In this document: positions 3,317-17,523 of the stretch, one piece after another
Numbering within the stretch: position 1 is the stretch's first letter
Layout of the letters: each line of letters starts with the position of its first letter
From: Microbacteriaceae bacterium
GTDB lineage: Bacteria > Actinomycetota > Actinomycetes > Actinomycetales > Microbacteriaceae
Direction: 5' to 3'
Assembly: GCA_947448845.1 (NCBI GenBank)
Contig: CANFOX010000003.1
Location: forward strand, 1 to 37,378
Length of the DNA: 37,378 nt
Program-made: the position numbers and the translations under genes
The notes under the pieces: generated by a model
Databases searched by the model: none
Seen by the model: the letters and a program-made list of their open reading frames with translations, nothing else
Told to the model about the DNA's origin: nothing

Positions 3317-4288
3317 ATGAAGGTCTTTATTCAGATTCCGTGCCTCAATGAGTCGGAATTCTTGCCAGCCACCCTCAAAGAGCTGCCGCGCAAACTTGAA
3401 GGCGCCAGCGAGGTCAAGTGGCTGGTTATAGATGACGGCTCGAGCGACAACACCACCGAGGTTGCACTTGCAAACGGTGTTGACTACGTGGTTCGGTTTC
3501 CGCACAACCAGGGCCTAGCCTCGGCCTTCCAAGCCGGCATCGATGCAGCGTTGAAACTTGGCGCCGACATTATTGTGAACACAGACGCCGACAACCAATA
3601 TGACGCCTCGGCCATTCCGGCTCTGATTAAGCCAATCGTTGAGGGCACCGCCGACGTGGTTGTTGGCGACCGCGACACCGGCAACGTGCAAGAGTTTTCG
3701 CGCCTCAAGCGCTACCTGCAGGGCCTTGGCACCAGCGTGGTGCAGCGTTTTTCTGGTACCAACGTTCACGATGCCACCAGTGGTTTTCGCGCCTTCAGCC
3801 GCCATGCCGCCCTACAAATCAACCTGGTAACCAAGTTCACCTACACAATCGAATCTCTAATTCAAGTGGATGACGCATCACTCGCACTCACCAACGTGCC
3901 CGTAAAACGAAATGCCAGTGTGCGCCCCAGCCGCCTGTTTGGCTCAACCTGGAAATATGTTCGCCGCAACGCCTGGACCATGATTCGTATTTACGTGCAA
4001 TACCGCCCATTGCGGTTGTTCGTTCCGGCGGGTCTGACGCTACTTGTGGCGGGCATTTTGTCTTGGCTTCCGTGGCTAATTGATGCCTTGAAAGGCAGCA
4101 ACACTGGGCACTTGCAAAGCATTATTCTGGGTGCCGTGCTCTTCATTTCAGGCATTCAGGTGCTTCTTTTCGGCATCTTGGCCGACTCGATTAACTCGGT
4201 TCGCTCGCTCACTACAAAGACCCTGCACCGGGTGCGCGACGTAGAACTCAGTGTCGGGGTTGAGCCAAAGATTTACCGCAAACGGTAA
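3317..4288 (+). CDS. Glycosyltransferase family 2 (DPM1/polyisoprenyl-phosphate sugar transferase-like) with C-terminal TM helices
   Basis: IQIPCLNESEFLPATLKEL, VIDDGSSDNT, NTDADNQYD motifs; two C-terminal hydrophobic helices. Confidence 0.9.
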   Translation: MKVFIQIPCLNESEFLPATLKELPRKLEGASEVKWLVIDDGSSDNTTEVALANGVDYVVRFPHNQGLASAFQAGIDAALKLGADIIVNTDADNQYDASAIPALIKPIVEGTADVVVGDRDTGNVQEFSRLKRYLQGLGTSVVQRFSGTNVHDATSGFRAFSRHAALQINLVTKFTYTIESLIQVDDASLALTNVPVKRNASVRPSRLFGSTWKYVRRNAWTMIRIYVQYRPLRLFVPAGLTLLVAGILSWLPWLIDALKGSNTGHLQSIILGAVLFISGIQVLLFGILADSINSVRSLTTKTLHRVRDVELSVGVEPKIYRKR

Positions 4289-4298
4289 CAATAGAGGC

Positions 4299-5948
4299 GT
4301 GAACGAAACCACCGGTGAAATAACCCTGCCGAGCGCCTGGGTTGTTATCCCCGCGCGCGGTGGGTCAACCGGGGTTCCTCGAAAAAACGTTCGACTGCTA
4401 GACGGCAAACCCCTGATTGCCTATGCCATTCAGGCGGCGCTGAAGGTGTGCGAACCCGGCCACGTGGTAGTCATCACCGACGACGACGAAATCGATGAGG
4501 TTTCACAAAGTTTTGGCGCCCAAGTGGTTCGCGAACAAAAAACCACGGGAAAGGCAACCCTCGACGAGGTTATGGTTCGCACCATTCCGTTTCTGAAAGA
4601 ACTTGGCGCCGCTGATAGCGACGTGCTACTCACCATTCAGCCCACCTGCCCGTTCATTTCGCACCGCCGCATTCGCGAGGCGCTCAAACGCTTTGCCGCT
4701 GGCGCGGGCTCGGTAATCACGGTGGTTGATGATCGCCACCTCGGTTGGCTCTTCGACGAACAAGGCAATCCAAAACCCGACTACAGCGCACGAGTGAATC
4801 GTCAGCAGCTGCCGCCCCATTTTCGCGAATCGGGTGCCATTATTGCAGCGCGCATTGGCGACATCCTTGAATTTAAGACTCGAATTGTTGCGCCCATTTC
4901 GCTACTTGAGCTACCAGAAAAAGAAGCAGTCGACATCGACACCTTTGCCGACTGGGCGATCGCCGAACACTTTGCTACCCGCCGCAAAATTCTGCTTCGC
5001 ACCGATGCCGCCAAAGAGCTTGGCATGGGTCACGTTTATCGAACGCTTGCCCTGGCTTATGCGCTTGCGCGACACGACCTCACCATCGTGCTAAGTAAAG
5101 ACAAACCGCTTGGCATTGAGTTCTTCGATCAATACCCGTTTGCCTATGAAACCATCGAAGACGATCTGCAGTTTGTTGGCCTAGTGGCTGCCGCGAAGGC
5201 AGATCTTGTGGTGCTCGACCGCCTCGACAACTCGGCCGAATTCGTTGAGTTGGTGAAAGAGCAGGCCAAGGTAATCACCTTTGAAGACCTGGGCAGCGGG
5301 GCCGAGGTTGCCGACCTTCTGGTTTCTGACCTCTATGAAAATCCGCGGGTGCCACTTGACCGTCAACTTTCCGGGGTTGAAAACGCCATCTTGGCCCCAA
5401 GTTTTGAAACCATTCCTCGCCAAATTGAGTTTCGCGATTCGGTGAAAGACATTCTGGTGCTGTTCGGGGGCACCGACCCCTCACACCTGATTGAACGCAC
5501 CCTTCGTGCCCTCGAGGGTTATGCCTTTACCGGGCTGATTACCGTGGTGCGCGGCATCGGCTCAGAGCTGATCAACCCGGCCGATTACCAACTCAAGTTG
5601 CGCGTGCTAACCGACGTAAAGAACATGCCGGCCGTTATGGCCCAGGCCGATGTTGCCATCTCTTCTGCCGGCCGCACTATTACAGAGCTCAGCAGCATCG
5701 GGGTGCCCACGCTGTGCATGGCGCAAAACGTAAAAGAACTAACACACACCCACACCAGCCCGAACAACGGCGTGGTCATGCTTGGCCTCGGCACCCTGGT
5801 AAGCCAAGACACTCTCGTGGCGCACATTGCCAAACTGGTTGAAGACACCGATTTCAGGCGCACCCTTCACGAGCGGGCCCTGCAGGCAACTGCCGGCCGT
5901 AGCAACAACTCAATCGTGCGCCGCATTATGCGCTCGGTTGGCCTCTAA
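4299..5948 (+). CDS. Fusion: N-acylneuraminate/nonulosonate cytidylyltransferase (NeuA/PseF-like) + PseG-like UDP-sugar hydrolase/GT-B domain
   Basis: N-terminal VVIPARGGSTGVPRKNVRLLDGKPLIAYAI and EAVDIDTFADWAIAE (NeuA-like); C-terminal RTDAAKELGMGHVYRTLALAYAL and SSAGRTITELSSIGVPTLCM (PseG-like). Start moved to GTG 4299 from the ORF track start at 4251. Confidence 0.88.
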   Translation: MNETTGEITLPSAWVVIPARGGSTGVPRKNVRLLDGKPLIAYAIQAALKVCEPGHVVVITDDDEIDEVSQSFGAQVVREQKTTGKATLDEVMVRTIPFLKELGAADSDVLLTIQPTCPFISHRRIREALKRFAAGAGSVITVVDDRHLGWLFDEQGNPKPDYSARVNRQQLPPHFRESGAIIAARIGDILEFKTRIVAPISLLELPEKEAVDIDTFADWAIAEHFATRRKILLRTDAAKELGMGHVYRTLALAYALARHDLTIVLSKDKPLGIEFFDQYPFAYETIEDDLQFVGLVAAAKADLVVLDRLDNSAEFVELVKEQAKVITFEDLGSGAEVADLLVSDLYENPRVPLDRQLSGVENAILAPSFETIPRQIEFRDSVKDILVLFGGTDPSHLIERTLRALEGYAFTGLITVVRGIGSELINPADYQLKLRVLTDVKNMPAVMAQADVAISSAGRTITELSSIGVPTLCMAQNVKELTHTHTSPNNGVVMLGLGTLVSQDTLVAHIAKLVEDTDFRRTLHERALQATAGRSNNSIVRRIMRSVGL

Positions 5949-5960
5949 CTCGAAAACCCT

Positions 5961-8072
5961 CTAGTTTTTCTTAGCGGGGAAACCAGCCTGAACCCTGATT
6001 GATTCAGGGGTTGCGCCCATTGGCAGCGCGTAATAGATGTAAACCGGATAAACGCCGAGCCTTGGCACATATCGACCTTTGGCGGTTAGCTGAATGCTCT
6101 GAAGCGAGCTACGCCCCGAAACATTGGTAACCAAATTGTCAAAGAAGATTTGCCCATATTCATCGGAGTAGCCATTGAGTGGTGTTCGGCTTTTGGAAAT
6201 GTTTAGCCGGTTTGGTGGCGTTAGCGTTGCGATCTGGTAGTCATAGCTGAATGGCTTCGCCAAGCAATTGTCTGATCTGTTTGAATCGCAGGCAATGCGG
6301 TTCGAAGCCGCCCATACTCTCAAAACTTTATTAGACAAAAATTCGTAGCTAGTGATCGCAGATGGCGACTTTGCAAAATTGTAGGCATTCGCCGGAATGC
6401 CCGCGCTCATTTGACCAGACCAGGCTTGCAGCGAAACGGTGAAATCAGAATTCAGCACATCAACACCGGTTAGGTAAGTGCTGAAAGAGGTGGCAAAGTG
6501 GCCAGTTCCGTTTTTGTAGAAATCTTGCTGAACCCAATCAACCGAGGTTCCCGAAACCGTGAGCTCCAGGTAACCAACGTTGGTCGACGGCACGTCGTTC
6601 CAGGTCACATGCAGTTCACCGTCACTGTCGAGTGTGTAGTTCAATGCGGTTGGTGTTGGAAGGTTTGTTGGTTCATCTTGGGGCACGCTGTATAGCTGCG
6701 GGAAAGACGTTTCATCGTGACCCGCATAGTGGGCAATCAACTGGATGTAGGAGTAATCATTGATCGTTAGCCACGGAATCGTGCCGCGAACCTGGTTGCC
6801 GTCGAAGTTGAAAGTGGTTACGGTTCCAGAGGTTTTTTCGATTATCTCTAGATCGTAGCTGGTAGGCAGGGTGCTCTCTTGTGGTGCATCCCAAAGGAAT
6901 GTTAGAGAGTCGCTGAAGTTATTTGCTGGTCTGCCACCAGTGAGGCGAAGATACGGTTGCCCCGAAAGCGAAGTTTGAACTGCGTCTGCGCCAACCAGCG
7001 CGGCGGCATCAACCAAGCCGGCCCCGGTGTATGGGTCCCATCCGGCTATTGCAGTCATGTCGGTTGCCGATTGCTCAAGATGGGTTTTGGTTTCAGCCGG
7101 GGTTGGGTTTCCTGCCTTTTCAATGTAGAGCGCAGCGGCTGCGGCTACGTAAGGGGAAGCCATGCTGGTGCCGCTCATCTCCATGTAAGGAAAATCTTGG
7201 TAGTAGGTGCTTTCGTAGTTTGTTGGAATCGTTGAGATGATGCTTTCGCCTGGGGCAGTTATGTCAACGCCGGGGTCAGTGGTGCTGAAGTAAGAGGTGC
7301 TCGTTGAATTCGGCGCCTCGGAGGCTACCGAAATAGCACCAGAGCAAGTCGCCGGCACGAGCGATGGGTTCCCCTGTTGGTAATAGTTTCCGGCGGCAGC
7401 AACCACAACCACACCGGCGTCATTGGCTGCAGTAACCGCGTTACAAATCGCGGTGGTGTAGACCTTGTAGGCAATGTCATCTGGCGTGAGGTCAACGAAC
7501 GCCGACTCTTCGAGGGCTGGGCCCCCAAGGCTTAGATTCACCACCTTGGCACCGTGGTCCACTGCATAGTTCAAACCATCCACAAGCGACTGCGAAAACG
7601 CCGGAAGGTCCATTGCGTCTAGGTTTGATAGCTTGATTGGCATTATTTTGGCGCCATAAGCCAAGCCGGTAACTCCGAAATTGTTGTGAAGGGCGGCAAT
7701 GATTCCAGAGACATGGGTTCCGTGTCCATACTCGTCGGTGAAGTCATTGGCAGCCGTGTCGGTTATGGTGACACCGTTATCGATTAGGTTCGCAGGGTCA
7801 TAGCTAATGGTGGCCCCATTTACGATCTGCCCCGATAAATCTGCATGCGATGCGTCAACCCCGGTGTCAATCACCGCAACTTTTACGCCGTTTCCGGTAT
7901 AGCCGGCACCCCAAGCAGCTTGAGCTCGAACGGCTTTGAGCCCCCACTGCAGGTTCTGATAGTTCGCAGAAACCAAATCATCTACTACGTTGGCCGAGCT
8001 CGGGGAAATTGCAAGCGCTGCCACCACTATTGATGTTGAAACAGCCGACGCCAGGATGCTTTTGATTTTCAC
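5961..8072 (-). CDS. Secreted S8 family serine peptidase (subtilase) with ~330-aa C-terminal extension
   Basis: Signal peptide; catalytic motifs VAVIDTGVDASHADL, GHGTHVSGIIAA, SGTSMASPYVAAAAAL; GTG start with AGGAA RBS. Confidence 0.95.
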   Translation of the reverse strand: MKIKSILASAVSTSIVVAALAISPSSANVVDDLVSANYQNLQWGLKAVRAQAAWGAGYTGNGVKVAVIDTGVDASHADLSGQIVNGATISYDPANLIDNGVTITDTAANDFTDEYGHGTHVSGIIAALHNNFGVTGLAYGAKIMPIKLSNLDAMDLPAFSQSLVDGLNYAVDHGAKVVNLSLGGPALEESAFVDLTPDDIAYKVYTTAICNAVTAANDAGVVVVAAAGNYYQQGNPSLVPATCSGAISVASEAPNSTSTSYFSTTDPGVDITAPGESIISTIPTNYESTYYQDFPYMEMSGTSMASPYVAAAAALYIEKAGNPTPAETKTHLEQSATDMTAIAGWDPYTGAGLVDAAALVGADAVQTSLSGQPYLRLTGGRPANNFSDSLTFLWDAPQESTLPTSYDLEIIEKTSGTVTTFNFDGNQVRGTIPWLTINDYSYIQLIAHYAGHDETSFPQLYSVPQDEPTNLPTPTALNYTLDSDGELHVTWNDVPSTNVGYLELTVSGTSVDWVQQDFYKNGTGHFATSFSTYLTGVDVLNSDFTVSLQAWSGQMSAGIPANAYNFAKSPSAITSYEFLSNKVLRVWAASNRIACDSNRSDNCLAKPFSYDYQIATLTPPNRLNISKSRTPLNGYSDEYGQIFFDNLVTNVSGRSSLQSIQLTAKGRYVPRLGVYPVYIYYALPMGATPESIRVQAGFPAKKN

Positions 8073-8083
8073 AGGGTTCCTAT

Positions 8084-9151
8084 CTAGAGATCTTCAGGCT
8101 GCAACGGCAAATCAGCCGCCACGGCGCGCTTCAGTGATTTGCCCATAACGGAATCCCACTGAGCAATTTCAATGCCGGTATTTGAGCGAAGCGCAATAAG
8201 GTCGGCTTCTTCGAGCACGTGACCGGCAGGCAAATCTCGAACCGCAATTATGCGGCGGCGAGCGTTGCTGATGGCTTGCGACTGCGCAGATAGCGAGTGC
8301 TCGCGGGTGCCATAGAGGGTTGAGTAGACGTCGAGTTTGTCAACAAACCGGCGAAGGTCGGCTTCATCCATGGCGTGGTAGTGGTCGTTGCCAACACCCT
8401 GCTTGTTGTCGGTGAAGTGCTTCTCGATAACTCTCGCGCCAAAGAGTGCCGCAATCTCAAGCGCTGGCAGTTCGCCATCATCTTCGGGGCGAACGTGGTC
8501 GCTGTAGCCGATGGCAACGCGCGAACCGAACTTTTCTTGCAGAACCTGAATCTGCGAAAGCTGTGCGTTTTCGCGCGGGGTTGGGTAGTTCAAAATGCAG
8601 TGCAGCAAAGTGACCGAGGCCGCGCCATCGGCTAGCAGTACCTCGAGCGAGTGCTCAATTTCAGCGTGACTCGAGGCGCCACATGACATAACCACTGGGC
8701 GCTTGGTGCGGGCGATTTTGCGAAGCAAAGGAATGTTGGTGAGGTCGGCACTTGCCACCTTGGTTACCGGCATAAGCGGCGTAAGCATGTCGACGGCGTC
8801 GAGGTCGAACGGGGTCGACATGAAGTCAATGCCCTGATCGACGCAGTGTTGAGCCAGTTCGGCGTATTCGGCAGGGCCAAAGTTATCCCAGCGTTGAAAG
8901 AGTTCATACTGGCTTGAAGTTGGCTCTTTGGTTTGATCCCAGTAAGCAGGGCTGGTGGTTTTGGCTGCCAGGGTGGCAGCCTTGTAGGTTTGAAACTTTG
9001 CGGCGTGGCCACCGGCGCGCGCGACCTGCTCAATCATGCGCTTGGCGCGGTCTAGCGAGCCCTCGTGGTTCACGCCGATCTCGGCAATTAGGTATGGCTT
9101 TAGGTAACCGAAGGTGCGGCCGCCAAGTTCAAAATCAATCATTTCGCTCAT
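8084..9151 (-). CDS. N-acetylneuraminate/pseudaminate/legionaminate synthase family (NeuB/PseI/LegI)
   Basis: LIAEIGVNHEGSLDRAKRMIEQ, KFQTYKA, VMSCGAS, LLHCILNYPTP, EKHFTDNK, C-terminal SAF-like domain. Confidence 0.93.
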   Translation of the reverse strand: MSEMIDFELGGRTFGYLKPYLIAEIGVNHEGSLDRAKRMIEQVARAGGHAAKFQTYKAATLAAKTTSPAYWDQTKEPTSSQYELFQRWDNFGPAEYAELAQHCVDQGIDFMSTPFDLDAVDMLTPLMPVTKVASADLTNIPLLRKIARTKRPVVMSCGASSHAEIEHSLEVLLADGAASVTLLHCILNYPTPRENAQLSQIQVLQEKFGSRVAIGYSDHVRPEDDGELPALEIAALFGARVIEKHFTDNKQGVGNDHYHAMDEADLRRFVDKLDVYSTLYGTREHSLSAQSQAISNARRRIIAVRDLPAGHVLEEADLIALRSNTGIEIAQWDSVMGKSLKRAVAADLPLQPEDL

Positions 9152-10533
9152 TTCGCGTAGTAGCGCTCTGGGTGCTCGGCCGGCTTGGCTTGACGCATCA
9201 ACAGCGTTATGTCTTCAAGATTACTAATCAGGGTGATGTCGCCGGCATCAATTGCTGGCTGCAAGTTTTCGAAACCGGGTAGCGGAAGGCAAAGCACCTT
9301 GCAACCAAGCGCGAGGGCCTCAAACAGGGTGGTCGAGAACGCCCCGATGACATACTCGCTGCTGGCCAGCAAATCTAAGAAGATGGGGTCTTTGTGGCTG
9401 AGCATGAAGTTGCTTGGCAGGTTTCGCCCCTCGGCTTGCGAAATCGATTGGGCCAGCGCGATGTAATCATCGAGCGATTCGTTTGGGTGCAGCCGAAAAA
9501 TCACCTCGTGCTTGGGCAACTTGCGCGCCGCCTCAATTGCCTGACGGCAAAGTTCTTGACCGATGGCACCCTGCGAAGAGAACAACACCTGTCGAGTAGC
9601 CCGATCGAGGCCGGCAACCCGCTGGCGATATTCGCCGAAGGCACGAGTTGGGCCAGAAACCTGAGTGGTGGTTCCGCGAGGCAACTTGAGGTTCGAGCCC
9701 CAGTATTCACCCCAGGTTAAGATCACGTGAGGCGCGGCATCTACTTTGCGACGCCCAAAAGTTTTGGCAAACGAATAAGCCGGATGCAACGGCGAGATAA
9801 ACCCATGCTGAATCTCGTAAACCTTAACCCCGGCGGCCTTGGCGCCGAGCACGATTGACGGTTCAGAATAAGCGTTCACAAGATAGAGCTTTTTGGTGCC
9901 CATGGCCTCGAATAGTTCGGCAAAACCGCGCTGCTCAACCAGGGTGCGGCGAATCAGCCACTGCGGGTATTTATGAAACTTCTCGAGCTTCACGGCAAAC
10001 TCACGTTCGAACCCTCGAATAATGAAGTGATAGCGAAGTTCCGCCGGGCGACGAGACTTTCGCCTCAGAATCTTGTTAGCCCAGGCTTCATGCTCACGTG
10101 CGAAATATTCGCGCAGACGAGTTAGGTCTAGGTCGGCGGCTTTCATGGGTGAGTTCACACCAAGACTTTGCTCTGCTGGTAAAAAGTCGATTGTTACCGG
10201 TGTTTTACCGGCAGCCGACAACTGCTCGCGAATGCGATCAGAGTAAGGCTCGCCGCCTGCCACGCGGCGGCGAAACGGCACGATTACGGTTTCGGCCTGG
10301 GGCACGCCAATCAAACTTTCGTATCTGGCGACCCCGTCATCAAGTTCTGGTTTTTCAAAGGTTGGATGTGGGTTTTCAAATAAACCAAGTTCTTGAGCTA
10401 TCGCGTAAAACAGGCGAACTCGAAGCAAACCGTAAAGCTGAACCCCGGCAAAGCGCATGCCAAAGTAACCGCGACGGCGTTCCACCTTGGTGAAGCGGTT
10501 GAAAAACTGCTCGAAGCTTAGTTCTTTAGCCAT
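9148..10533 (-). CDS. Putative GT-B-fold glycosyltransferase (capsule/sialyltransferase-like), family not assigned
   Basis: EIQHGFISPLHPAYSF, HEVIFRLHPNES, VIGAFSTTLFEALALGCKVLCLPLPG motifs; ATG at 10533 (MAKELSFEQF) preferred over upstream start; ATGA overlap with the neuB-like gene. Confidence 0.7.
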   Translation of the reverse strand: MAKELSFEQFFNRFTKVERRRGYFGMRFAGVQLYGLLRVRLFYAIAQELGLFENPHPTFEKPELDDGVARYESLIGVPQAETVIVPFRRRVAGGEPYSDRIREQLSAAGKTPVTIDFLPAEQSLGVNSPMKAADLDLTRLREYFAREHEAWANKILRRKSRRPAELRYHFIIRGFEREFAVKLEKFHKYPQWLIRRTLVEQRGFAELFEAMGTKKLYLVNAYSEPSIVLGAKAAGVKVYEIQHGFISPLHPAYSFAKTFGRRKVDAAPHVILTWGEYWGSNLKLPRGTTTQVSGPTRAFGEYRQRVAGLDRATRQVLFSSQGAIGQELCRQAIEAARKLPKHEVIFRLHPNESLDDYIALAQSISQAEGRNLPSNFMLSHKDPIFLDLLASSEYVIGAFSTTLFEALALGCKVLCLPLPGFENLQPAIDAGDITLISNLEDITLLMRQAKPAEHPERYYAK

Positions 10534-11701
10534 TGGTTGCCTCTCGAATTGCGGTGGCAATCTGCTCACAGTATGCCTCACCAATTACGGCGATGTCATA
10601 GCGCTTGGCTGCCTCGGCGATGCCGGCGGCCACTTTAGTTCGAAGCTGTGTGTCGTCGAGCAGACGCTCAATGGCCAGCCCCAACTGGGCCGCGTTGCGT
10701 TGCTCAACAAGCAGGCCACTTACCTCGTGCTCGATTACCTCGTCGATTCCAGGCAGGCGGCTGGCCACTACTGCAATGCCGCCGGCAGCCCCCTCGAGCA
10801 AAGTCACTGGCAGCCCCTCTTGATCGCCAGAGCTAGCGGTAATCGACGGAATGGCCATCAGCTGACTTTCAGCAATAGCCGCAAGCACATCGCTTCGACC
10901 ACGCTGGCCCAAAAACTCTACGGCGAGCCCTTCGGCTAGCGCCTCTAACTCGCCTCGCATTGGGCCGTCGCCAATTACCTTCACCGTAATGCGCGAACCA
11001 ATCGAAGTGGTGCGCATGGCTTCGAAAAGATACCCGATTCCCTTTTTCTCAACCAGGCGACCAACCACCAGAAGTTGCCCGTCTATGGTTTTAACATCTT
11101 TTTTCGAAACCACACTGGTGTCTACGCCCATTGGCAACACCGCAATCTTTTTGGCTGGAATGCCAAGCTGCACCAGCCGGTCGAACATCTGACGATTCAC
11201 GGTGGTGATTTGAGCGGCGCGTTTGAACACCCAGCGCTTTAGTGCCAGAAGCGGTTTTTGGTTGAGCGCGTAAATGTCGCCGCCGTGCGTGGTGACCACC
11301 AGCGGCACTCGAGGTGCGCAAATCGCGGCCACTAGCCCCTGCGGAATGACCCAGTGAGCATGAATGGCCGCCGGTTTTAGCAGCCGAACCTGGCGACGCA
11401 AGGCACGCGCCAGGCCGAACATCAACGCCGGCACCTGCAGCCACAGCGAGCGCCGTGCCTTCAGGTTGTCAAGAATGGCCCCGTCGGCTAGTGCCTCAAG
11501 GGGTTTGAAGAAATACGGATACCGCACCACAGCAACGCCATCAATCACTTCTTGTGGTGCAGCACCACGAACCCGAGGGGTTAGCACCGTCACGTTGAAG
11601 CGCATTGCCTCTCGCCTAGCGAGGTCTAGCACGAAAGCTGGAGTTCCATCGTTCGGGTTCCCCGGAAAGGTCGATGCCAGCACCAAAAGATTTGGTTTCA
11701 C
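10526..11701 (-). CDS. Glycosyltransferase family 4
   Basis: LVVTTHGGDIYAL, VVGRLVEKKGIGYLFEAM, GLPVTLLEGAAGGIAVVAS; GTG start. Confidence 0.93.
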   Translation of the reverse strand: MKPNLLVLASTFPGNPNDGTPAFVLDLARREAMRFNVTVLTPRVRGAAPQEVIDGVAVVRYPYFFKPLEALADGAILDNLKARRSLWLQVPALMFGLARALRRQVRLLKPAAIHAHWVIPQGLVAAICAPRVPLVVTTHGGDIYALNQKPLLALKRWVFKRAAQITTVNRQMFDRLVQLGIPAKKIAVLPMGVDTSVVSKKDVKTIDGQLLVVGRLVEKKGIGYLFEAMRTTSIGSRITVKVIGDGPMRGELEALAEGLAVEFLGQRGRSDVLAAIAESQLMAIPSITASSGDQEGLPVTLLEGAAGGIAVVASRLPGIDEVIEHEVSGLLVEQRNAAQLGLAIERLLDDTQLRTKVAAGIAEAAKRYDIAVIGEAYCEQIATAIREATNG

Positions 11702-11766: not shown

Positions 11767-13311
11767 ATGAAAATTCTCATTTTGAACAGTGACTCGCCCA
11801 ATAATCGCGGCGACCGCGCCATTCTTGCTGGCAACATCGAATTGATTCGCAAGTCGATTCCAAATGCCCAGATCACCTCGCTTTCGCAGTTCGCCGAGCG
11901 CGATGCCGCCTGGTTTGGAATTCGTTTTTTGCCATTCTCGCCATACTCGGTGAACCCGAAACACATGCTGCAACTGATTCAAGAAGCTAAGCAGTCAGAC
12001 CTTGTGCTTTGGGGTGGCGGCGAGCTGCTGAAAGATTACACAAATAAACTTTCGCTGAATTACTGGGCCCTCAAACTTACCCTGCTGCGTTTTGCCAACA
12101 AAAACATCTACGGCCTGTTTCAGGGCATTGGCCCTACCAAAGCCGGCTCTAGCAAGCGCCTGATTGCCTACACGGTAAACCAGACCCGCGGCTTCACGGT
12201 TCGCGACGCCGAATCGAAAGAGAAGCTTGAGGCCTGGGGTGTTCGCACTCCGATCATTGAAAGCTTCGACCCTGCCGTCTATTGCCCATCGCCGAGCGTT
12301 GCCGATGGCATCAATGTGATGCGCCGTTATGCCAACGAAATTGGCATCGACTCTGAGTTTTTTCACAACTTCGCCGGCTTTGGCGTTCGACGCTGGTTTC
12401 ACTATCGCCCAGGCGGTTTACTGCCGGCTAAGCTACGTTTCTGGTCTCGCGGCTCAAAGCGCATTGGCGCAAAAGAGCAGGCATACATCAAGCACCTGGC
12501 AGACATTGCCGATTCGCTTGTTGAACTTCGCGATGTAAACCTGGTGTTTTTTCCGATGCATGTTTCGGCTAGCGAAAACGATGAGGCGTTTGCAAAGCAG
12601 GTAGTTGCTCAAATGCAGCACGGCTACCGGGCCCACGTTATCGAAGCAGACACCTTCTCGCCCAGCGACTTTTTGGCACTTCTTAGCCTCTCTAAGTTCT
12701 TTGTAGCATCTCGACTGCACTCGGCAATCTTGGCTACCGTGGCTCAGGTTCCTGCCTTCTGCCTTTATTACGTAGACAAAGGTCGTCTGTTCTTCGAGCA
12801 GATCGGCTTGGCCCAGTTCAGCGCCAGCATCGACGAAACCCTCACTCAAGAATCTGCCAACGAGGTAACCAAATCGATCATTGCTCTTACTGGTCTCTCT
12901 GGCGTGGTTAGAAACAGCGAGCAGCGAGCCGTGCAATCTATGCGTGCTCGAATCTATGCCGACTTCTTCACCCTGCTTGCCGAAAAGATTGTGAAGCCAC
13001 GCACGGTTTCAGAAGAACTAGCGGTTCGCCGGGCAGCAGCCATTGGCATTAGCTCTAAGAAAGCGCCAACCTATCGCGCCAAGAGCAACCTAAAGCCAGC
13101 CCAAAAGCCCGCGGCGAAAGCGCCAACCACAAAGTCGACACCCGCCAAACCGGTTGCGAAGACTGCCGCCAAGGTAACGCCGAAAGCCGTAGCAACCAAG
13201 CCGGTTTCGAAGACTGGCGCCAAGCCAAAACCAGCGGCGAAAGCCACCGCTAAAGCGAAAGCCACCGCGCCTAAGGTTGCCGCGCCTAAGACTGCCAAGC
13301 CAAAGAAGTAG
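11767..13311 (+). CDS. Polysaccharide pyruvyl transferase family protein with Lys/Ala/Pro-rich C-terminal tail
   Basis: MKILILNSDSPNNRGDRAIL, LVLWGGGELLKD, GLFQGIGPTKAG, FTVRDAESKEKL; ~70-residue AKPTK-rich tail. Confidence 0.88.
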   Translation: MKILILNSDSPNNRGDRAILAGNIELIRKSIPNAQITSLSQFAERDAAWFGIRFLPFSPYSVNPKHMLQLIQEAKQSDLVLWGGGELLKDYTNKLSLNYWALKLTLLRFANKNIYGLFQGIGPTKAGSSKRLIAYTVNQTRGFTVRDAESKEKLEAWGVRTPIIESFDPAVYCPSPSVADGINVMRRYANEIGIDSEFFHNFAGFGVRRWFHYRPGGLLPAKLRFWSRGSKRIGAKEQAYIKHLADIADSLVELRDVNLVFFPMHVSASENDEAFAKQVVAQMQHGYRAHVIEADTFSPSDFLALLSLSKFFVASRLHSAILATVAQVPAFCLYYVDKGRLFFEQIGLAQFSASIDETLTQESANEVTKSIIALTGLSGVVRNSEQRAVQSMRARIYADFFTLLAEKIVKPRTVSEELAVRRAAAIGISSKKAPTYRAKSNLKPAQKPAAKAPTTKSTPAKPVAKTAAKVTPKAVATKPVSKTGAKPKPAAKATAKAKATAPKVAAPKTAKPKK

Positions 13312-15141: not shown

Positions 15142-16210
15142 TTGCCGAAGCGCTTGGCGTAGGGCTGGCGGTTGGCGCTGCCTCAATTGTTAGGCTGCCA
15201 ACATCCTTCGGTTGAAGTTCGAACCAGGTGTTTCCAACAGCGAGCTTGATTGGGCTGCCAGCAGCATCAAAAAGTTGGATTGGCGAGGTCTTGTCGGCTT
15301 TCTTATAAGTTGCCTTGAGAACCTTACCTGCGGTGAATATGTAAGCGGTTCCGCTGCCGATTAGCAGGCTGCGCGGAACGAATCCGTATCGCTTGTCTAG
15401 ATAAGAGCGGTCAATAGTTACCGGAATCACCACCACGTTCACGGCGTGAATTTGGCTTTTGTCGTTGGCGTCAATGTGCGGCTTTCCGTCTTGAACGCGC
15501 AGCCAAACGCCCTTCGAAGCGCTCCAGTTCCAGGTTGCGGTTGCGGCTGGAAACTTTACTGTGAAACCGAGCACTCCCGAGCCGGCAACCGCGGCGCTGG
15601 CCTCGGCCGCGCTGGTTGCGAAACTAAACGGCGACGCCGGCGCGGCCAGGTCGAGGTGCTGACCTTGCAGGTGCTGTGCCGAGATCATCACGTTGTGTGG
15701 CGCAAAACGGTCTGTAACGCGCTTGAAGGTGTGTTTTCCCTGCTGATTAGTCTCGGTTGCACTGAACACCGGCGAGGCCGCCATGGCGCTCACAAAGGCC
15801 GCCTGGCCACCAGAGAAACAGATGATGCCTTTATATGGCGAAGCAATGTCTGGGTCCATCGGGCGAACCGACCTAACCGGGCCGAGCAGCGTTGGCATAT
15901 TGCTATGCCAAACCGCCAGCAGACGGGTGAGGCCGCCTTCTACCATCTCGTCGTAAACGACATCCGTCTGATTTAAGCCAGCTTGGGGGCGGGCATCGGA
16001 AACGTTGTCAATCTTGGCCATAATGGCTGGGCCGGCAAGCCACTGGTTGGTTCCAGCGTCAAAACTAGCCCCGGTTAGTGGGGAAATAACCTTTTGTGCA
16101 CTTTGAGACGGATTCCCGGATTCACCGCCTGCACCACTTATTGGCGACGAACATGCAGAAACTGCCAAAAGTAACCCAGTTGCCAGAGCAATGTGGCGAA
16201 TACTAATCAA
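15134..16210 (-). CDS. DUF3048 domain-containing lipoprotein (YerB-like)
   Basis: Lipobox LLAVSACSS; PAIMAKIDNVSDARPQAGLNQTDVVYDEMVEGGLTRLLAVWHS, GPVRSVRPMD; TTG start overlapping the upstream stop. Confidence 0.88.
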   Translation of the reverse strand: MISIRHIALATGLLLAVSACSSPISGAGGESGNPSQSAQKVISPLTGASFDAGTNQWLAGPAIMAKIDNVSDARPQAGLNQTDVVYDEMVEGGLTRLLAVWHSNMPTLLGPVRSVRPMDPDIASPYKGIICFSGGQAAFVSAMAASPVFSATETNQQGKHTFKRVTDRFAPHNVMISAQHLQGQHLDLAAPASPFSFATSAAEASAAVAGSGVLGFTVKFPAATATWNWSASKGVWLRVQDGKPHIDANDKSQIHAVNVVVIPVTIDRSYLDKRYGFVPRSLLIGSGTAYIFTAGKVLKATYKKADKTSPIQLFDAAGSPIKLAVGNTWFELQPKDVGSLTIEAAPTASPTPSASATK

Positions 16211-16713
16211 GTTCTAGCTACTTTCGGCCCTGGAGGTCCTGGAGGCCCTGGGCGAGGGTGCGGGCTAGGAGTCCAAGTGGGGGTCGGTGTTGGTTTCGGT
16301 GGGCGCCCACCGCCAGACCCAGACCCAGACCCAGACCCAGACCCAGACCCAGACGATGATCCTGACTGCGTTGCAGAAGGGGTTGGCGTTGCAGAAGGTT
16401 TCGGCTTCGAGGACTTCTTTTTGTGCTTCGTAGCAGGTGCCTTACCGCCTGGCTTAGCGCTGGAACCATCGACCCGATAGTTGTTGCGGTCGAGCGAAAT
16501 GCCCTCGCCAGAGCTAGATGCAGAAGGGCTAGGGTTCACTACGGCACCGTTTGAATCGGGCCCGTTCGCGTTCGGTTGATCATTCGAATGAAGAAAGAAA
16601 CCGGCTCCAATAAATAGTGCTGAACCAAGCGCCGCAGCGCTAACTGCCAAAGCCAAAACTTTAGCCCCAAGAGATTTTCGCTTCTTGGCAGTTTTAGAAA
16701 GATTGCTACCCAT
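16207..16713 (-). CDS. Single-TM low-complexity protein with (GS)n and Pro-rich extracellular region
   Basis: MGSNLSKTAKKRKS then TM (VLALAVSAAALGSALFIGAGFFL); S/P/K-rich, GSGSGSGSGSGSG, PGPPGPPGP; RBS upstream of ATG 16713. Confidence 0.75.
   Translation of the reverse strand: MGSNLSKTAKKRKSLGAKVLALAVSAAALGSALFIGAGFFLHSNDQPNANGPDSNGAVVNPSPSASSSGEGISLDRNNYRVDGSSAKPGGKAPATKHKKKSSKPKPSATPTPSATQSGSSSGSGSGSGSGSGSGGGRPPKPTPTPTWTPSPHPRPGPPGPPGPKVART
16315..16354. repeat. Hexanucleotide tandem repeat (AGACCC)n, six full copies plus a partial
   Basis: agacccagacccagacccagacccagacccagacccagac read directly; encodes Gly-Ser repeats on minus strand. Confidence 0.97.
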
Positions 16714-16817
16714 TTTTATTTCACCTAGGTAGTCAAAGTCGCTCAACTTAATTCCTTCACACGTTCAAAGTTTTCAGGCCAACCCCGAACCGAAATTCTA
16801 TCTCAGTTGAACAGAGC

Positions 16818-17420
16818 CTAGTCTCCGTGGTCTTCTGATTCACCGTCGGAGTGACCTGAATCTTCGTGCGAATCGTCACCCGATTCGTGTTCGCCAGAAC
16901 CTGAACCAGCCTGGGTTGAATTGGTGGTGTTGCCAGTGCCCGAGCCAGAACCCGAACCAGCTTGCGTTGAGTTCGTGCTGTTTCCAGAACCCGAACCGTA
17001 CCCACCACTGGCCTGTGTTGCCGAGGTCGTGGTTCCAAAGTTTATTTGAGTGAGCCCCGCGGTGGCCTGCTGGTTCGGCAAAACTGAACCCTGCTTTTGA
17101 GTTGTGCCCGTCGAGAGCACCAAACCCGCCGATGGTGAAAATGCCTGCGAGGGTGAACTCGTTGCGCTTGCCCCAACAGCTGGGGCTTTCCGTGATGGTG
17201 AATCTGCAAAAGCTTCATCATTTGAAATCGGATTCTGCGAATTTGATTCGGCTACGTTGTTGGTAATCAGCAGGTTGCCCGCAAATATGCCACCGGCAAC
17301 CGCTGCCCCGCTGGCTAGGGTGCCTAGCATTCTCGAAAGAGAACTAGGGGTTTTCGAACCTAGACCCGAAACACTCTGATCGTGAGGTGCAAGTTCGACC
17401 ACTTCTTCGTTATCTGGCAT
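16818..17420 (-). CDS. Single-TM protein with Ser/Gly/Thr/Asn repeats and His/Asp/Glu-rich C-terminus
   Basis: RBS AAGGAGG before ATG 17420; TM LGTLASGAAVAGGIFAGNLLI; repeated NSTQAGSGSG; tail GEHESGDDSHEDSGHSDGESEDHGD. Confidence 0.78.
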   Translation of the reverse strand: MPDNEEVVELAPHDQSVSGLGSKTPSSLSRMLGTLASGAAVAGGIFAGNLLITNNVAESNSQNPISNDEAFADSPSRKAPAVGASATSSPSQAFSPSAGLVLSTGTTQKQGSVLPNQQATAGLTQINFGTTTSATQASGGYGSGSGNSTNSTQAGSGSGSGTGNTTNSTQAGSGSGEHESGDDSHEDSGHSDGESEDHGD

Positions 17421-17523
17421 TCCTGCCTCCTTTGAAATCAAATCTATTTTGAGTGTATTGAAAACTCGTAGCCAAAAAGGGCACCGATTTAGATTCACAG
17501 TAAATGCACAAATTAAAAGAAGG

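Follow-up and report, generated by a model that had tools for sequence, protein, structure and literature searches.

The gene at 4299–5948 of the window (plus strand; the window is the whole stretch of 37,378 nucleotides analysed here) joins a NeuA/PseF-type CMP-sugar cytidylyltransferase domain to a PseG-type nucleotide-sugar hydrolase domain. We consider it fairly likely that its product is a bifunctional ulosonate enzyme, which acts both before and after NeuB and leads to a sugar other than pseudaminic or legionaminic acid.

The Fusion Gene

The gene is a single intact open frame of 549 codons. Translation from the GTG at 4299 gives a protein of 549 amino acids. The same frame reaches back to a GTG at 4251, where it overlaps the 3' end of the upstream glycosyltransferase gene; homologous fusions have starts that agree with 4299 or lie slightly downstream. 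The original prediction of one ORF with both domains is confirmed: the frame 4299–5948 is uninterrupted, and the NCBIfam models for PseF and PseG match in one chain. A frameshift, or a sequencing error that merged two genes, has a negligible probability and is already refuted, as the same full-length fusion recurs in five independent congeneric genomes (68–71% identity to the window fusion in four, 30% in one) and at 57 loci elsewhere. Judged from the codons, the C-terminal half is under purifying selection: differences between the window and its relatives amount to 0.56–0.61 at the third position and 0.14–0.21 at the second, in both halves. The GMGH motif noticed earlier is retained at residues 242–245, and the motif GGSTGVPRKN corresponds to residues 21–30.

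A phage or plasmid origin of the fusion is rejected. Phage records gave one match only, to the N-terminal half, plasmids gave no match covering more than 80% of the fusion query, and viral contigs match the query only as far as residue 240.

Distribution and Origin of the Fusion

Among 59 congeneric genomes, the full-length fusion is seen in G009, G012, G015 and G030, and in a divergent form in G057. G001 contains only its C-terminal part, cut by the contig end. In the phylum sample, 4 of 397 genomes, including the own genome, have a match that spans the entire fusion. At least 57 fusions emerged from a scan of 84,980 species; these 57 lie among the best 80 loci, which were picked by similarity to the fusion and analysed further. 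These 57 are distributed over about 10 bacterial and archaeal phyla (20 in Methanobacteriota, 12 in Bacillota, eight in Bacteroidota, six in Pseudomonadota, four in Campylobacterota, and the rest in others). The taxa include gut methanogens, Lachnospiraceae, Bacteroidota, Campylobacterota and freshwater actinobacteria. The fusion architecture is thus real, but it is not unique, and it is far more widespread than had been implied. No published description of the fusion was found in the open-access literature.

In quick tree searches, the NeuA halves of the fusions group in a single clade (SH-aLRT 99), the sole unfused member of which is a contig-edge fragment. The fusion-linked NeuBs likewise group together (support 99), in a clade that includes the contig-edge case G001. 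The trees indicate that the fusion and the fusion-linked NeuB are each of single origin within the sample of the best 80 loci, to which the clade statements apply. A tree of the PseG half was set aside because of long branches meeting.

The N-Terminal Half

The N-terminal half (4299–4982, residues 1–228) was assigned with Pfam, NCBIfam and Foldseek, and its NeuA/PseF-type CMP-sugar synthetase domain spans residues 15–224. Pfam CTP_transf_3 (PF02348) matches residues 15–135 (E 6e-20) with 72.4 bits, above the cut-off of 22.6. NCBIfam PseF (TIGR03584) matches residues 16–224 (E 7e-28) with 97.7 bits, below the curated cut-off of 205.7. At the top of the Foldseek matches are CMP-Kdn and CMP-Neu5Ac synthetases (E 7e-16, TM by target 0.81–0.86), and CMP-Pse synthetases are also among the leading matches. 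By family score and NeuA fold, this half is a NeuA-type CMP-ulosonate synthetase. NeuA core residues are near-invariant across the 57 fusions. The fold and the core residues, including R165 and D212/D214, are shared with the CMP-ulosonate synthetases 9T4Z (CMP-Kdn), 6IFD (CMP-Neu5Ac) and 9FTB (CMP-Pse), from which the fusion differs by the additional PseG-type C-terminal domain and, in the window lineage, by S-T-G in place of S-K-G.

The lysine of the S-K-G motif is replaced by T24 in the window lineage. Lysine is present in 52 of the 57 fusions, and the other five have S-T instead of S-K. GGSTGVPRKN had been taken as a hint of a substrate other than Neu5Ac. The change from S-K to S-T is a feature of the lineage and says little about the substrate, because V-S occupies this place in 9T4Z, a CMP-Kdn synthetase of solved structure. 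Nor is the lysine strictly defining for NeuA-type CMP-ulosonate synthetases. The ST motif as a sign of a KdsB-like substrate is ruled out, since the motif varies inside the fusion family.

The C-Terminal Half

The C-terminal half (4983–5948, residues 229–549) was assigned with NCBIfam, phmmer and Foldseek, and the PseG-type UDP-sugar hydrolase domain covers residues 230–549. NCBIfam PseG (TIGR03590) matches residues 230–475 (E 4e-31) with 108.8 bits, below the curated cut-off of 153.55. As the scores for PseF and PseG are far above chance yet below the curated cut-offs, both halves are, by sequence, relatives rather than certified members of the pseudaminic acid enzymes. In a phmmer comparison with Campylobacter jejuni PseG (3HBM; E 1e-6), H17, E239 and N255 (chain positions of 3HBM) align with H245, E463 and N477. 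We take His17 of PseG to be a catalytic residue. Foldseek finds C. jejuni PseG (3HBM and 3HBN; E 7e-10 and 2e-9, TM by target 0.68–0.69) as the first match for this half, the entries ranked above it being cytidylyltransferases and related nucleotidyltransferases. The half thus has the PseG fold, the GxGH histidine, and the active-site asparagine and glutamate. These features are shared with C. jejuni PseG. The fusion differs from it in being joined to a cytidylyltransferase, in scoring below the family cut-off, in the signature GRTxxE...QNxRExxH instead of the GTSAWD...DNQ carried by stand-alone congeneric PseGs, and in that most fusion-bearing relatives are without PseB or PseC.

PseG has the same fold as MurG-type transferases, and the C-terminal half could instead be a GT-B glycosyltransferase which uses the CMP-sugar made by the N-terminal half, so that the fusion would join consecutive steps. 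MurG scores 27.7 bits, the QNxRExxH signature is unlike stand-alone PseG, and GT-B transferases appear lower down in the Foldseek list. We regard this as improbable, however, since PseG is both the best HMM and the first fold match. A separate glycosyltransferase gene adjoins NeuB, and without hydrolysis at this domain several genomes would have no known means to free the NeuB substrate. An unrelated glycosyltransferase, which the original prediction had set as its counter-hypothesis, is rejected, as PseG outranks MurG and other GT-B proteins in both the HMM and the Foldseek comparisons.

The deviation of the last-motif region from canonical PseG would also fit a catalytically dead domain whose only role in a CMP-sugar synthetase is structural or regulatory. 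This is very improbable given the purifying selection on the half and the conservation of its residues in many phyla: H245 is kept in 55 of the 57 fusions, E463 in 56, and N477 in 53.

The Domain Junction

Both domains are detected by HMM in all 57 aligned fusions. The distance from D214 to H245 is exactly 31 residues in every one of them, whereas eight of nine other intervals vary. In an AlphaFold model built with 57 sequences (mean pLDDT 94.2, pTM 0.88), the helix 216–227 leads directly into the first PseG strand (230–235), with no flexible linker. The fixed spacing between the domains, together with a NeuB partner specific to the clade, suggests that the fusion may be a scaffold around the NeuB step, an idea also consistent with the rigid junction in the model and the dedicated NeuB clade.

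The NeuB Partner

The NeuB-like gene expected near the fusion is present at 8084–9151 on the minus strand. It encodes a NeuB-family ulosonate synthase with a SAF domain (Pfam NeuB, E 9e-69) and is the putative partner of the fusion. NeuB/NnaB (TIGR03569) scores 283 bits, below the cut-off of 399.65, and PseI scores 224 bits. NeuB requires a free or phosphorylated hexose. R314 of NmNeuB aligns with R322 of the window NeuB, and this residue presumably contacts the N-acetyl group. Because R322 is kept, a 2-acetamido substrate would be favoured.

NeuB is found within the fetched stretch at 54 of the 57 fusion loci from the best 80, on the same strand in 52. In nearly all cases it is directly downstream of the fusion, with gaps mostly below 20 bp, often 17 bp or less, or with an overlap of a few bp. 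Of the three loci without NeuB, two have a fusion that is truncated close to the end of a contig. In the genus of the window, NeuB and the fusion are convergent, unlike the same-strand order elsewhere. In the window itself, an S8-type serine protease-like gene (5961–8072, minus strand) lies between them. At this site, other congeneric genomes have different genes or none, and it looks like an insertion hot spot.

Upstream Pathway Enzymes

The draft genomes of the genus are 81–99% complete, and the own genome 83%. In the drafts of G001, G009, G012, G015, G030 and G057, no PseC-type aminotransferase match exceeds 22 bits. In the same set except G001, which has a 284-bit relative, no PseB match exceeds 46 bits. 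PF02350 (NeuC/LegG/WecB) is not seen in the own genome, G009, G012, G015 or G030. G057 shows only a weak sub-threshold match inside the fusion itself, and G001 is again an exception, with the enzyme present. A DegT gene and one SDR gene of the own genome were rejected as Pse enzymes, both lying beside dTDP-sugar genes; its other SDR gene resembles an ordinary epimerase. Separate PseG genes of the same genus sit with PseB and PseC: G013 and G039 have separate PseG and cytidylyltransferase genes, with strong PseC and PseB matches.

Among 37 distant fusion genomes, PF02350 and PseC-type matches above 35 bits are both missing in five: G099, G102, G105, G118 and the isolate Aerococcus kribbianus (G134). 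Many other fusion genomes encode DegT aminotransferases and PF02350 enzymes elsewhere. As sources of ManNAc, AGE (PF07221) was absent in all 12 genomes tested, and NanE (PF04131), absent in 12 of 14, is rejected as a general supplier; it is seen only in the Aerococcus genome and G414.

The original prediction is therefore retained in part. A single chain does carry the NeuA/PseF-type and PseG-type domains, which flank the NeuB step. The pseudaminic acid context is not supported: the PseF and PseG cut-offs are missed, the NeuB/NnaB score is higher than that for PseI, PseC is missing from the fusion-bearing relatives, and PseB likewise in all but one.

Could the fusion still be an ordinary enzyme for pseudaminic or legionaminic acid, with partners of PseB/PseC/PseH or LegB/LegC type located elsewhere, missed in drafts, or replaced by unrecognised enzymes? 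PseF and PseG are the best-named families, and many distant fusion genomes have DegT enzymes, seven of them above the PseC cut-off. Methanobrevibacter smithii is reported to contain pseudaminic acid (PMC6137143), and the genus Methanobrevibacter often carries the fusion. We consider this explanation unlikely, because PseC-type enzymes are missing in five other congeneric genomes and in five distant ones including A. kribbianus, PseB-type matches stay at or below 46 bits in five relatives, and NeuB is better described as NeuB/NnaB than as PseI. Furthermore, G414 has a PseB-PseC-NeuA-NeuB-PseG-type cluster and, apart from this Pse-type operon, a separate fusion-NeuB module. Against our main reading, it can be said that the absences come from drafts, and that in the window NeuB is convergent with the fusion and a protease-like gene lies between the two.

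Proposed Function

We propose that the fusion is a cytoplasmic enzyme with two functions in the biosynthesis of sialic-acid-type sugars (ulosonates). The PseG-type domain would convert a UDP-hexose to the free sugar and UDP, the separately encoded NeuB would condense the freed sugar with phosphoenolpyruvate, and the NeuA-type domain would combine the NeuB product with CTP into a CMP-ulosonate for a surface glycan. The activities of the fusion, its substrate, and any channelling through NeuB we infer from sequence. Because most relatives with the fusion have no PseB, PseC or NeuC/LegG/WecB, this lineage probably makes neither pseudaminic nor legionaminic acid, but a sugar that derives straight from an ordinary UDP-sugar. 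A 4-amino group is not expected on the UDP-sugar that is hydrolysed if PseB and PseC are missing. In genomes without PF02350, the PseG-type domain is the sole visible candidate to release the hexose for NeuB, which argues that it is a working hydrolase.

It can be speculated further, although the whole of it is rather doubtful, that the fusion and NeuB, two genes with three activities, suffice to turn an ordinary UDP-sugar into a CMP-ulosonate. In that case NeuC would be replaced by the PseG-type domain, which might, for example, hydrolyse and 2-epimerise UDP-GlcNAc, or use another primary UDP-sugar and so lead to a new ulosonate. The fused enzyme would hand the freed sugar to NeuB and receive the NeuB product in return.

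Product predictions for sialic-acid-type clusters depend on the upstream enzymes found with NeuB and NeuA. By homology, they would call the route of the fusion Pse. As the fusion is monophyletic, goes with a NeuB clade of its own and occurs in genomes that lack PseB/PseC or NeuC, this assignment is probably wrong. The fusion is also a natural test of whether joining the enzymes before and after a third enzyme aids the third step.

Comparison with Known Systems

SpsE, SpsF and SpsG of Bacillus subtilis belong to a route to legionaminic acid, in which they act with SpsM, SpsC and SpsD (PMC7439481). They are the same three kinds of enzymes (NeuB-type, cytidylyltransferase and PseG-like), but encoded by separate genes. 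NeuC-NeuB-NeuA is a three-enzyme route to Neu5Ac (PMC10919079) and, like the fusion with NeuB, has three activities from a UDP-sugar to a CMP-ulosonate. Here NeuC (PF02350) is missing, and a PseG-type domain is present instead.

In G003, G053 and G065, NeuA is fused to a HAD-type KDN-9-phosphate phosphatase, likewise a cytidylyltransferase with an extra C-terminal pathway enzyme. Theirs is a phosphatase, not a UDP-sugar hydrolase, and their NeuA belongs to a separate clade. Fusions of NeuA with a KdsC/KDN-9-phosphatase-type HAD domain are seen in the genus and the order at L036:9603-10769, L038:9021-10184 and L037:3489-4670; with them, there are at least three ulosonate gene layouts in the group. 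A PseG-PseH-type fusion (G087, L042:9802-11397) likewise joins a PseG-type domain to another pathway enzyme, but its partner domain matches the PseH acetyltransferase model.

Neighbouring Genes

The gene at 9148–10584 (minus strand), adjoining NeuB in related genomes, encodes a GT-B glycosyltransferase-like protein, a candidate CMP-ulosonate transferase or polymerase. Its family is present at 20 of the 57 distant fusion loci. The second Foldseek match is a polysialyltransferase with CDP (5wcn), with TM of only 0.42–0.51. Tandem pairs of related glycosyltransferases are found at L039:9129-12322 and L040:6238-9788, beside separate NeuA and NeuB genes. A family-2 polyprenyl-type glycosyltransferase (3317–4288, plus strand; Pfam Glycos_transf_2, E 1e-22) is encoded immediately before the fusion, and adjoins it in G012 and G015 too.

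Common neighbours at the 57 fusion loci, called from sequence clusters with Pfam tests on examples, are Wzx-type flippases (28), hexapeptide acetyltransferases (18) and pyruvyl transferases (15). In the window, a CsaB-like polysaccharide pyruvyl transferase (11767–13311, plus strand) has a Lys/Ala/Pro-rich tail of about 90 residues, resembling histone H1-like tails. Two small proteins encoded at 16207–17498 (minus strand) have low-complexity C-terminal tails rich in Ser/Gly or Pro.
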